DNA of 25,162 bases from a virus. The position numbers and the translations under genes were made by a program. Position 1 is the first letter of the stretch. The number at the start of each line of letters is the position of its first letter. Below, piece by piece: positions 21,222-24,717 of this stretch. A model generated the notes under the pieces. It saw only the letters and a program-made list of their open reading frames with translations, was not told where the DNA came from and made no database searches. The stretch spans positions 1 to 25,162 of IMG/VR virus record IMGVR_UViG_3300030746_000130. One strand, given 5' to 3'.

Positions 21222-22241
21222 ATGGCAGAACGCCTTGCACCTCTTGATTACTACAAATGGCACTGGAAACGCTTTAGGCTTAGCCGAAACGTCCAAAGAC
21301 TTCATTACGTAGCCCGCGGCTTCTATCGCGAGCTTCTAGATGAGCAATTCGCTGAAGGTTTCATCCCAGATGATATACACCTGTTGGCAGATATTTGTGG
21401 GTGTCCGGTTGCTGTGATGCAAGAGCATTGGGACTCACTAGAGAAGTTCTTCCCTTTGGCAGAGCCCGGGCAGCGGGTCAATCCCAATCAAGAATCACAC
21501 AGGACTGAACTTGATCAAAAGCGTGCCGCACAGTCAAGGGCAGGGCAACTTTCAGCCGCATCAAAGGCGAAGGCTAAATCAACAAACGTTGAAGGTTATT
21601 CAACGAACGTTGAACCCAATTCAACGGATGTTAGTGAATCTCCAACATCAACTAACAACTGTTCAACACTGGATGAAGAATTTCCAACAGATGTTCAACC
21701 AGAAGAGAAGAGAAGAGATAGAGAGAAGAGTAGAGGAGAGAAGAGACCTTCTCGCTCCAAAGTCGCGAGCGTTCCTGATCCACGGCACACACCATTCCGG
21801 ACCGCTTTTGAGAAGTACTTCCTGTTTATGAATAAGGGGGTTCAAAAGGCTCCATGGCACCCTTCTGACGGGAAACAACTATCAGAATTCCTAAAAGCAA
21901 ATCCCACGTTCACCACAGAGCAGTGGGTGAAGATGCTGAATAATCGCGTGCGCAGCGACGTAACGCATGGAGAAAACCTGCGCGCATGGGTGGGTAGAAC
22001 CCTAGTTTGGGCTTCTGGACCCACAGATGCACGAGGAAAGCAAATAAATGGAGGAAACAATGCCCGACCAGCCACTACAGCCATTGACAGCGCTAACGAT
22101 CAACTCCTCAGCAACCTACGATCAGAAAGTATGGATTCTGGAGGCCATTTCTCTGGCCGAACGATTGAAGCCAGGGACGCCGGTGTTGGATCTGAAGGCG
22201 CGGGAAGCGCTGGTGAACTTGTACTGCGCGCTGCTGATTGA
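21222..22241 (+). CDS. DUF1376-type replication protein
   Basis: The first 110 residues match DUF1376: 'PLDYYKWHWKRFRLSRNVQR', 'ARGFYRELLDEQFAEGFIPD', 'HLLADICGCPVAVMQEHW', 'RVNPNQ'. Residues 120-161 are a polar linker made of six 7-residue units coded by 21-bp DNA repeats, followed by a basic Glu/Arg/Lys stretch. Residues about 185-275 form a second helical domain. The last 60 residues are low-complexity and overlap the next gene by 182 bases in another frame. DUF1376 proteins lie in phage replication modules at the place of lambda O; origin binding is inferred. Confidence 0.82.
   Translation: MAERLAPLDYYKWHWKRFRLSRNVQRLHYVARGFYRELLDEQFAEGFIPDDIHLLADICGCPVAVMQEHWDSLEKFFPLAEPGQRVNPNQESHRTELDQKRAAQSRAGQLSAASKAKAKSTNVEGYSTNVEPNSTDVSESPTSTNNCSTLDEEFPTDVQPEEKRRDREKSRGEKRPSRSKVASVPDPRHTPFRTAFEKYFLFMNKGVQKAPWHPSDGKQLSEFLKANPTFTTEQWVKMLNNRVRSDVTHGENLRAWVGRTLVWASGPTDARGKQINGGNNARPATTAIDSANDQLLSNLRSESMDSGGHFSGRTIEARDAGVGSEGAGSAGELVLRAAD
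21579..21704 (+). repeat. Six 21-bp direct repeats (iteron-like), candidate replication origin
   Basis: The pentamer YCAAC starts at 21579, 21600, 21621, 21642, 21663 and 21684, exactly 21 bases apart. Copies 1 and 2 share TCAAC[AG]AACGTTGAA, which contains the inverted repeat TCAAC/GTTGA. Copies 3 and 6 keep CAAC..ATGTT, and copies 4 and 5 are degenerate. The unit encodes ST[ND]V-type heptapeptides in the DUF1376 gene. A purine tract follows directly. The layout matches lambda, where iterons and an asymmetric tract lie inside the O gene. Confidence 0.55.
21701..21746 (+). other. 46-base polypurine tract after the iterons
   Basis: Only two of 46 bases (21719 and 21731) are pyrimidines. It encodes a Lys/Arg/Glu-rich linker, and as DNA it could be a strand-asymmetric, easily unwound element beside the repeats. 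Confidence 0.6.
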
Positions 22242-22662
22242 GATTGGGCAAGAGCGCTTTGAGGAAGCGTTTCAGCGCGTGCTGAACTCCTCAAAGTTCC
22301 GCCCAGACATCTCAGAGCTGCGAGAAGCGGCCGGCGCGCCAATGCAGAACCCGTACCATGTGCAAGCGCTTGAGGACCTAAAGACATTGTTCATCATCAT
22401 GCGGGAGCACGGAAAGACGATCAGGCCCACGCGCCAGAAGGACGGGAGCACGCTAACCCCGCCGCGCTTGAATGAAACAACCGTGCTAACGTGCAGAGAG
22501 TTGGGGTTTGGCGACGCTTACGCAGGGTTTGAGTTCGTGTACAACCATCCGGCTTTGGACATCGCGCGAGGGCTGAATGAGACCGCAGAGCTACCTTTTC
22601 GGTCCGCAGAGAAGATCGAAGCCAAGTTTGTGCAGACATGGGTGAAGGTGAACACCAAGTGA
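22060..22662 (+). CDS. Helicase-loader-like replication protein
   Basis: ATG 22060 has GGAGG directly upstream; an ATG at 22048 would lack it. The 200-residue product is helical, with 'VLDLKAREALVNLYCALLIE' and 'FEEAFQRVLNSSKFRPDISE' followed by LREAAG. That second stretch resembles the module of G39P-like helicase loaders, in which a short helical domain sits before a proline-containing 'FxPxxxEL' turn. It has no ATPase motif. The first 182 bases overlap the DUF1376 gene in a different frame. Location after DUF1376 mirrors lambda P after O. Confidence 0.6.
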   Translation: MPDQPLQPLTALTINSSATYDQKVWILEAISLAERLKPGTPVLDLKAREALVNLYCALLIEIGQERFEEAFQRVLNSSKFRPDISELREAAGAPMQNPYHVQALEDLKTLFIIMREHGKTIRPTRQKDGSTLTPPRLNETTVLTCRELGFGDAYAGFEFVYNHPALDIARGLNETAELPFRSAEKIEAKFVQTWVKVNTK

Positions 22663-23834
22663 AGCCAACAATGGGAAGTCTCTTTGCTGGCATTGGAGGC
22701 TTCGATCTAGGCTTTGAACGCGCTGGTTTCGAGACAACCTGGCAGGTAGAGATTGATCCGTGGGCGCGGAAAGTGCTTGCGAAGAACTTCCCGAACGCAG
22801 AAAGGTTTGAAGATGTCCGAACAGTTGGAGCGCACAACCTCAAGTTCGTCGACGTTATCTGCGGCGGCTTCCCCTGCCAGGACATCAGCAACGCCGGTCT
22901 GCGTGCCGGTATTGAGGGAGCACGTTCAGGACTCTGGAGCGAGTATGCGCGAATCATTCGCGAGCTACAGCCCCGATTCGTCCTCGTGGAGAACGTCGCA
23001 GCTTTGCTTGGACGGGGAATGGGCCGAGTTCTCGGAGACCTGGCCGAAATCGGGTATGACGCGGAGTGGGAGGTCGTATCCGCTGCCGACGTCGGCGCGC
23101 CGCATCTCAGGGAGCGCATCTGGATACTGGCCTACCCCTGCGGCACAATCGCCGGGCGCGGGACCGAACAATTCAAAGGTGGAGAACCTGTTGACGGGCA
23201 GCCGACACAGCTTCTATCTGAGCCATGCGGTGGAAGCGGAGAGGCGAAAGCCTGGGATCATTACAGGGATGTGGCCCACGCCGGACACAAGGGGATTCTC
23301 GAACGAGGGTGGGATAGCGGCACTGGCGCGGAAGACAGATTCGATGGACGAGCTAAGGGGGATGTCCTATCGAGCGAACCAGCGCCACAGGGATCGAGCT
23401 ATGGCGAAGATGCTACCGTCGCCGACGGCGAGCAACACGAAGGCGGTTCACCTGCGCACGAATGGGCGACCGCCGCGGAGCTACCTGCCGACGCCAACGG
23501 GGACAATGGGCGAGAAAGGCGGGCGAGGCGACTTGCTGGCGATTGTGCGGACGGGCAAGGTGAGCGGTCGGAAGCACTGGCCGACGCCGGCCGCGCAGGA
23601 CGCGAAGAACTCGACGCTGCCGCAGTCGCAGTCGCAGTCGCAGAGGGGTTCGATACCTGGGGCGCTGCTGAGGGAAGGTTGCCCGGTTGGTGGGCAGTTG
23701 AACCCAGTGTGGGTCGAGTGGCTAATGGGATACCCAAGCGGGTGGACAGACTTAGGGGACTCGGCAACGCCGTAGTGCCGCAGATTCCAGAAATGTATGC
23801 ACAGCGTATCAAGCAACTATTGGAGAATTCATGA
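22659..23834 (+). CDS. DNA (cytosine-5) methyltransferase
   Basis: GTG 22659 overlaps the upstream stop (GTGA), giving 391 residues; ATG 22638 and ATG 22671 are also in frame. Motif I is 'SLFAGIGGFDLGFERAG' (7-23), motif IV 'GGFPCQDIS' with catalytic C73, motif VI 'VLVENVAALL' (108-117), motif VIII 'RERIWILAYP' (151-160), and motif X 'RLRGLGNAVVPQI' (364-376). The middle, about 165-335, is Gly/Glu/Ala-rich and holds the target-recognition part. All key motifs are intact. No cognate restriction nuclease is nearby, so protection of phage DNA is likely. The 'AVAVAVA' run comes from a hexanucleotide repeat. Confidence 0.93.
   Translation: MKPTMGSLFAGIGGFDLGFERAGFETTWQVEIDPWARKVLAKNFPNAERFEDVRTVGAHNLKFVDVICGGFPCQDISNAGLRAGIEGARSGLWSEYARIIRELQPRFVLVENVAALLGRGMGRVLGDLAEIGYDAEWEVVSAADVGAPHLRERIWILAYPCGTIAGRGTEQFKGGEPVDGQPTQLLSEPCGGSGEAKAWDHYRDVAHAGHKGILERGWDSGTGAEDRFDGRAKGDVLSSEPAPQGSSYGEDATVADGEQHEGGSPAHEWATAAELPADANGDNGRERRARRLAGDCADGQGERSEALADAGRAGREELDAAAVAVAVAEGFDTWGAAEGRLPGWWAVEPSVGRVANGIPKRVDRLRGLGNAVVPQIPEMYAQRIKQLLENS
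22813..23775 (+). CDS. Nested out-of-phase gene: WPTP-repeat, methyltransferase-associated protein
   Basis: A second frame, fully inside the cytosine methyltransferase gene, is open for 320 codons from ATG 22813 (AAAGG seven bases upstream) to TAG 23773-23775. The product has 'SSWRTSQLCLDGEW', 'EFSETWPKSGMTRSGRSYPL' (72-91), five WPTP/LPTP/LPSP repeats (106, 154, 201, 225, 256) and 'LNPVWVEWLMGYPSGWTDL' (296-314). From memory, this set of motifs occurs as separate phage and prophage proteins often labelled as DNA methyltransferase or methylase-associated. It lacks the catalytic PCQ motif and SAM loop. It may be a genuine overprinted gene or a shadow of the methyltransferase frame that databases have propagated. 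Confidence 0.45.
   Translation: MSEQLERTTSSSSTLSAAASPARTSATPVCVPVLREHVQDSGASMRESFASYSPDSSSWRTSQLCLDGEWAEFSETWPKSGMTRSGRSYPLPTSARRISGSASGYWPTPAAQSPGAGPNNSKVENLLTGSRHSFYLSHAVEAERRKPGIITGMWPTPDTRGFSNEGGIAALARKTDSMDELRGMSYRANQRHRDRAMAKMLPSPTASNTKAVHLRTNGRPPRSYLPTPTGTMGEKGGRGDLLAIVRTGKVSGRKHWPTPAAQDAKNSTLPQSQSQSQRGSIPGALLREGCPVGGQLNPVWVEWLMGYPSGWTDLGDSATP
23621..23643 (+). repeat. Hexanucleotide microsatellite
   Basis: About four units of CGCAGT. The six-base unit keeps both overlapping reading frames intact when it slips, encoding AV repeats in the methyltransferase and QS repeats in the nested frame. Confidence 0.75.
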
Positions 23835-24058: not shown

Positions 24059-24265
24059 ATGGAATTTCCCAAAACGTTCGATGAAATGAAGGCAGCAAAG
24101 TACACTTTCGACAACGATGCGACCTGCAGAGGTTGCGGAGATGAAATCGAGTGGTGGATCACACCGACGGGTAAAAAGCTCCCCATGAACCCCATGACGA
24201 GCGGTAACTCTCCAGCCATAGCGCACTGGGCGACATGCGATAACCCGCCAGAAAGGAAGTTATGA
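24059..24265 (+). CDS. Small phage zinc-ribbon-like protein
   Basis: GGAGGAAG lies just before the ATG. The 68-residue product contains 'CRGCGDEIEWWITPTGKKLP', then 'MNP' and 'AHWATCDNPPE', a treble-Cys/His pattern ('CxxC...IxWxxTPxGKxxPxxP...HWxTC') that is frequent in phage accessory regions. It probably binds one zinc ion. The role is unknown. Confidence 0.72.
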   Translation: MEFPKTFDEMKAAKYTFDNDATCRGCGDEIEWWITPTGKKLPMNPMTSGNSPAIAHWATCDNPPERKL

Positions 24266-24717
24266 ATTTCGATAAAGAGGTCGCTTGGGCAACTGGATTT
24301 TTTGAGGGAGAGGGAACGGTCAGTGTAATGAAGCCACGACAGCGGAACTGGGGCTCGCTGTGTGTCTCAGTCGTCAACACGGAAAGGCATTTAGTTGAGT
24401 TTTTTCAAAGTCGCTGGGGAGGTAGGATCCGCGAAATGAAGATGTCAGGAAACCGCAAGAGGGCATGGAGGTGGACGCTCTCTTCGCGGCAAGCGGCCAA
24501 GTATCTCGCGGACATCCAACCCTACGTATTCGGACAGAGGATGAAAGATAGGGTTTTCTTGGGGCTTGCTTTCCAGGACAACAAATGGTCCATGAATCGC
24601 CATGTTTCGGAAGCGGAGCGCGAGGATTACTGGAAGGCTAACGTTTGGTATTGGAGGCAGTTCTACCACCTCAATCGCCGCGGTTTGTGCAGCGATGCTC
24701 CAAGCTTTCGCAAATAG
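24262..24717 (+). CDS. LAGLIDADG-type homing endonuclease
   Basis: The ATG overlaps the preceding stop (ATGA). In the 151-residue product 'EVAWATGFFEGEGTVSV' (6-22) is the LAGLIDADG motif with E15 as the likely metal ligand, followed by 'SLCVSVVNTERHLVEFFQ' and 'WRWTLSSRQAAKYLADIQPY'. A single motif means it would act as a homodimer. It cleaves DNA at a long recognition site and spreads itself. It is the fourth endonuclease of mobile type in the window. Confidence 0.82.
   Translation: MNFDKEVAWATGFFEGEGTVSVMKPRQRNWGSLCVSVVNTERHLVEFFQSRWGGRIREMKMSGNRKRAWRWTLSSRQAAKYLADIQPYVFGQRMKDRVFLGLAFQDNKWSMNRHVSEAEREDYWKANVWYWRQFYHLNRRGLCSDAPSFRK

Follow-up and report, generated by a model that had tools for sequence, protein, structure and literature searches.

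Nested in the +1 frame of phage cytosine methyltransferase genes: a putative second subunit of an overlapping-frame C5 methyltransferase

C5-cytosine methyltransferases can work as two polypeptides and can reassemble from fragments (PMC3404938). The large subunit of M.EcoHK31I comprises motifs I-VIII, motif X and the TRD, and its small subunit contains motif IX only. In M.AquI the small subunit consists of the distal variable region and motifs IX-X (PMC3404938). A second reading frame within a phage methylase gene has been described for the ShiLan domain, an out-of-frame HNH domain in a mycobacteriophage methylase (PMC11855218). Here we analyze a phage methyltransferase gene, MT, that contains the gene of a second protein, WP, in its +1 frame. 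Searches of the open-access literature for this overlap yielded the ShiLan element and the split C5 methyltransferases and nothing more.

The window is a stretch of 25,162 nucleotides of viral DNA (IMG/VR record IMGVR_UViG_3300030746_000130); all features of the two genes lie on its plus strand. MT, the alpha frame, is an open reading frame of 398 amino acids at positions 22638..23834 with an in-frame ATG at 22671 as possible alternative start. It matches the Pfam profile DNA_methylase (1.1e-49) over residues 12-166 only, and residues 14-166 align with M.HhaI (E 2.7e-23). Motifs I, IV (PCQ), VI (VLVENV, 22980..22997, with the ENV signature), VIII (RERIW, 23109..23123) and X (GLGNAVVPQ, 23757..23783) identify MT as a C5-cytosine DNA methyltransferase. 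The target-recognition region and motif IX are absent from the MT chain, since the Pfam match ends at residue 166 and the motif-IX-like segment is found in the +1 frame.

This +1 frame is already open from 22750. The nested gene WP, which encodes 320 amino acids and a putative beta subunit, extends over 22813..23775 from an ATG at 22813 to a TAG at 23773-23775 that lies within the motif X sequence of MT. A Shine-Dalgarno-like AGAAAGG (22799..22805), which belongs to a conserved internal-start class, is located 7 nt 5' of the ATG. The motif SETWPKSGM (23032..23058) is overprinted on the motif VI-VIII region, with constraint in both frames. It is followed by five W/LP(T/S)P repeats within 23128..23589 (WPTP at 23128, WPTP at 23272, LPSP at 23413, LPTP at 23485 and WPTP at 23578) and by the motif-IX-like segment LNPVWVEWLMGYPSGW (23698..23745), the DNA of which reads EPSVGRVANGIPKRV in the MT frame. 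Thus, the 320-codon reading frame out of phase inside an intact methyltransferase gene was found as the initial annotation had described it, with the motifs of both frames in place and the DNA of motifs VI-VIII doubling as the segment from SETWP to the first WPTP. In the PHROGs profile search WP matched phrog_1008 (3.6e-32), a family whose label, DNA methyltransferase, is silent on the +1 position of its members. WP gave no Pfam or NCBIfam match, and no solved structural relatives of WP were found. Two further observations concern the neighborhood of the gene. Upstream of MT, a primosomal-like reading frame (21222-22241, phrog_9327) shares 194 nt with a second one (22048-22662, phrog_9804) that is read in a different frame, and directly downstream a homing-endonuclease-like reading frame is present at 24262-24717 (phrog_5046, HNH label, 4e-17; weak LAGLIDADG match in Pfam).

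M.EcoHK31I (YGGCCR) resembles the MT/WP pair in that its large polypeptide carries motifs I-VIII and X. Its motif IX resides on a second polypeptide, and the IX-like segment of WP is a candidate counterpart. The gene of its beta subunit reportedly lies in another frame within that of alpha. However, the TRD of M.EcoHK31I is part of alpha and its beta subunit holds IX only, whereas the WPTP variable region of the window belongs to WP; the type B loci treated below (L090, L112, L144) look closer to M.EcoHK31I. M.AquI resembles the split relatives in phiBT1 and Vash, which have a catalytic I-VIII subunit and a second subunit with the distal variable region and IX-X. It differs from the window, where beta is nested within alpha and motif X is kept in alpha. 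The second reading frame of the window overlaps the catalytic one and is under selection, as would suit a two-polypeptide enzyme of the M.EcoHK31I/M.AquI kind. The ShiLan domain shares with WP the position in a second reading frame of a phage methylase gene, but this domain is an HNH homing element that was inserted in the third frame and occurs sporadically. In contrast, WP lies in the +1 frame over conserved catalytic motifs, occurs in most relatives and gave no match to an HNH profile of Pfam, PHROGs or NCBIfam.

The length of the open +1 frame was compared with synonymous-codon permutations. In the window the longest +1 run is 341 codons versus 143 expected, and none of 2,000 permutations gave a run as long; the +2 frame showed 68 codons versus 70 expected (p = 0.49). 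When WP homologs from viral contigs were collected (best 80 matches), all 80 listed homologs had the methyltransferase frame in the same phase. Because this set had been picked by WP similarity, further loci were fetched with MT residues 9-62 as a guard against ascertainment bias; nearly all of this segment is encoded before the ATG start of WP. Permutation of 67 of these unbiased loci (methyltransferase of at least 250 aa), with the MT protein and codon use kept, was exceeded by the +1 run at p < 0.05 in 56 loci and at p < 0.01 in 34, compared with 4 of 67 for the +2 frame. The +1 run covered a median share of 0.85 of MT versus 0.40 expected, and the +2 run 0.22 versus 0.24. The longest nested +1 runs reach 585 codons. 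No +1 excess was observed for the canonical methyltransferases dcm, L339 and L340. One of these, from a Rubrobacter genome (L340:1420-2751), has a 250-codon open run in the +2 frame that none of 500 permutations reached. A nested form was also found on the Leptospira interrogans plasmid p2 (L336:1221-2036), with a +1 run of 262 codons (p = 0.0105).

In order to follow selection in the MT frame, synonymous mismatch was expressed as the ratio of observed to expected values from codon usage. For 86 nested type A loci, taken as one set irrespective of kinship after removal of near-identical sequences, so that related loci remain, this ratio was 0.98 for residues 9-58, 0.87 for 59-90, 0.73 for 91-166, 0.26 for 356-365 opposite WVEWLMG, and 0.97 for 384-398, past the WP stop. 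The unbiased subset, treated in the same manner, gave 0.90 (9-58), 0.83 (59-90), 0.67 (91-166), 0.56 (346-383) and 0.87 (384-398). Single MT codons were fixed, for example A136 as GCC in 59/59 and I138 as ATC in 21/21 sequences. Relative to L089 and L093, its closest distinct relatives, the window showed synonymous differences of 0.64 and 0.63 in the part preceding the overlap; within the overlap these dropped to 0.35 and 0.28.

Synonymous change in the WP frame was approximately 0.9-1.0 at the first WPTP, which makes WP the constrained frame there; it averaged 0.61 in the IX-like segment and was 0.50 opposite motifs VI-VIII. These two-way counts indicate that MT dominates in the motif VI-VIII region and WP in the repeats, and that both matter near IX. 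In 184 nested loci a regular expression for the repeat found 357 motifs in the +1 frame, compared with one in frame 0 and two in +2. In these loci the third positions of WPTP were free (1.6-1.9 bits), as were the opposite MT residues (D/N/H/Y and A/T/S/P); the near-zero entropy at first and second positions is imposed by the regular expression and was not counted as evidence. The idea that WPTP is a mere shadow of LADA codons was rejected on the grounds of the WP-frame constraint, the motif counts and the free third positions. Across many homologous loci the second frame is thus under purifying selection, visible as suppressed MT synonymous change inside WP, and contains few stops among relatives. 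Judged by sequence evolution, dual coding of MT and WP is almost certainly real.

Internal starts were searched as a Shine-Dalgarno sequence of at least 5 bases with ATG or GTG at MT residues 50-69. Among 112 loci, 34 had such a signal in the +1 frame, 2 in frame 0 and none in +2. In many loci WP is equipped with its own putative Shine-Dalgarno start. A different arrangement was seen in type B, where 18 of 27 loci have paired starts, ATGnATG or, in two loci, ATGnGTG; the leading start of the pair belongs to the MT frame and the other to +1. The initial annotation had left open whether the overlap is genuine overprinting or a database-wide artefact; selection, the few stops and the conserved starts speak for overprinting and against the artefact.

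The distribution of the overlap was surveyed with the best 80 matches per query. Motif patterns assigned the listed loci to at least 207 nested, at least 33 fused and at least 27 split forms, and at least 61 were without recognized IX. The nested form accounted for 73 of 78 viral loci found with WP, for 53 of 79 found with MT and, among the matches listed from bacterial and archaeal genomes, for 77 of 78. Many bacterial phyla are represented among the phages and prophages with this form, with AT-rich phages of Firmicutes at one extreme and GC-rich actinophages at the other, and at least one archaeal genome has it as well. The conserved overlap comprises roughly 150-585 codons, which is surprising because long same-strand overlaps are often dismissed as annotation errors. 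The second protein is rarely annotated. In the Paenibacillus phage Pagassa both reading frames (gp59/gp60) are annotated as methyltransferase, and in R9.1 and vB_AbaM_ABMM1 the +1 reading frame is present and unannotated. Split phages such as phiBT1, Vash and PrincessTrina encode a protein with no motifs other than I-VIII; the repeats, IX and X are found in a +1 reading frame that comes next. The fused actinophage enzymes WillSterrel gp71 and Tweety gp72 have a homologous catalytic part, but differ in carrying everything in one frame, with I-VIII, LPTP repeats, the EWMMGWP segment and GNGVVPQ in a single chain. Among the matches listed, no WP gene was free of a methyltransferase frame. Apparent stand-alone loci turned out to be contig ends or to adjoin a scrambled upstream part. 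Hence the stand-alone phage protein family mentioned in the initial annotation was not recovered in this set, and its WP homologs are nested in, adjacent to or fused to a methyltransferase frame.

In a tree of the catalytic part, for which three canonical methyltransferases served as the root, the sampled type A fused genes all fell into one clade (99) within nested type A, together with every sampled split gene except two. The nested form would consequently be ancestral, with the pair later split or fused in actinophages and the single-frame enzymes derived from it, although this root is provisional because the outgroup is small and long-branched.

The C-terminal half of WP matches the variable region and IX-like segment of the fused actinophage methyltransferases. 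An hhalign alignment of WP against the fused enzymes gave 98.6% (E 5.9e-16) from the repeats to the EW(L/M)MG segment. WP is therefore no entirely novel protein without kinship to the enzyme but resembles the half that MT lacks. In an AlphaFold model of the fused form, which resembles M.HhaI, the catalytic part and the segment from about residue 301 to 390 were confident and the repeats unfolded; WP alone was modeled poorly (pLDDT 54.6). The IX-like segment scored -3.2 bits against motif IX of M.HhaI, which is not significant alone, and its pattern is suggestive.

Three points lead us to favor a two-subunit enzyme: the repeats and the IX-like segment are in WP and motifs I-VIII and X in MT, relatives unite these parts in one chain, and two-polypeptide enzymes are known. 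MT and WP are probably the subunits of an overlapping-frame two-polypeptide C5 methyltransferase. A single phage mRNA would be translated into two polypeptides from overlapping frames. Alpha, the product of frame 0, would be the AdoMet-binding catalytic part, and beta, the +1 product translated from its own internal start, would bring in the variable region with the WPTP repeats and the motif-IX-like segment. Both may assemble into one methyltransferase as in M.EcoHK31I and M.AquI, with WP presumably responsible for target recognition. Its likely role would be that of an orphan phage methyltransferase shielding the genome against host restriction. The nesting would date from early in this methyltransferase lineage, and actinophages would later have shifted the WPTP/IX part into the MT frame (fused) or to an independent reading frame downstream (split).

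WP might instead have a separate function, for example in anti-restriction or regulation, overprinted on an MT that is a complete enzyme alone. We regard this as unlikely, although it accounts for the motif X and continuous reading frame retained by MT, for the separate start of WP and for the +1 repeat reading frame beside a fused methyltransferase in some actinophages (ReT1v-2, L186, L193). It does not agree with the homology between the C-terminal halves of WP and the fused enzymes, with an MT frame unconstrained at WPTP, as for a linker and not a recognition domain, or with the split form, which groups IX and X with WP. A ribosomal frameshift past motif VIII, making the WP sequence a C-terminal extension of MT in one chain of I-VIII, repeats and IX, is considerably less probable still. 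The WP sequence does continue the enzyme in fused phages, and shifted alleles occur in mycobacteriophages (Jarcob gp69/gp70, L178), but conservation of WP extends far upstream of the presumed shift site, WP possesses a Shine-Dalgarno start of its own, paired starts are used in type B, and a second shift back would be required to include motif X. That the +1 conservation is a by-product of a conserved, GC-rich MT can practically be dismissed, because, although several loci are GC-rich and LADA codons in such DNA automatically yield WPTP in +1, the excess persists at GC 0.42-0.50 (L049: 310 codons versus 76 expected) and in permutations that preserve protein and codon use, third bases at WPTP are free, and the canonical enzymes lack the excess.

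The two-subunit enzyme can be extended to a broader proposal, to which we give an even chance. A large phage cytosine methyltransferase lineage, present in several bacterial phyla and one or more archaeal genomes, would keep its target-recognition half overprinted on the catalytic gene. The second frame would have originated when parts of the enzyme exchanged frames, and actinophages would later have brought it back into frame. In length and distribution the family would rank near the top among dual-coding genes on one strand in prokaryotes. MT/WP is a strong test case for the evolution of overlapping genes, and its nested, split and fused relatives give a direct view of the origin and resolution of a two-frame gene. 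Should WP prove to be a required subunit, then only half of the enzyme is on record for many annotated orphan phage methyltransferases, a possible reason for clones without activity and for specificities not yet assigned.

Several loci deviate from the arrangement of the window. Type B (L090, L098, L112, L144 and others) forms a second dual-coding methyltransferase class, in which the +1 reading frame spans almost the whole gene and constraint goes down to 0.22 within +1-conserved stretches. Its +1 product ends in the motif-IX-like GIRWLSGSERLTIMGFxxDWM, motif X lies in the MT frame, and a plasmid homolog of this product was looked for and not found. E. coli matches were rejected as members of the nested type and belong to another one. 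In this type C, from E. coli prophage regions (L346:1992-3518, L347:1992-3248, L134), the MT frame includes IX and X, but +1 encodes the segment after VIII (SQVLE..PQRYFLSSTACAGILRRAE); the genes are flagged incomplete in RefSeq. The frameshifted mycobacteriophage alleles L004 (Jarcob gp69/gp70) and L178 pass from the N-terminal part of WP in +1 to MT motif VIII and on to LPTP, IX and X. ReT1v-2 (L169), L186 and L193 have the LPTP repeats in +1 beside an intact MT frame with an IX-like EW segment of its own, so that the repeats seem to move between frames. The +1 reading frame of ReT1v-2 and like actinophages carries repeats without IX, and WP may therefore act otherwise there.
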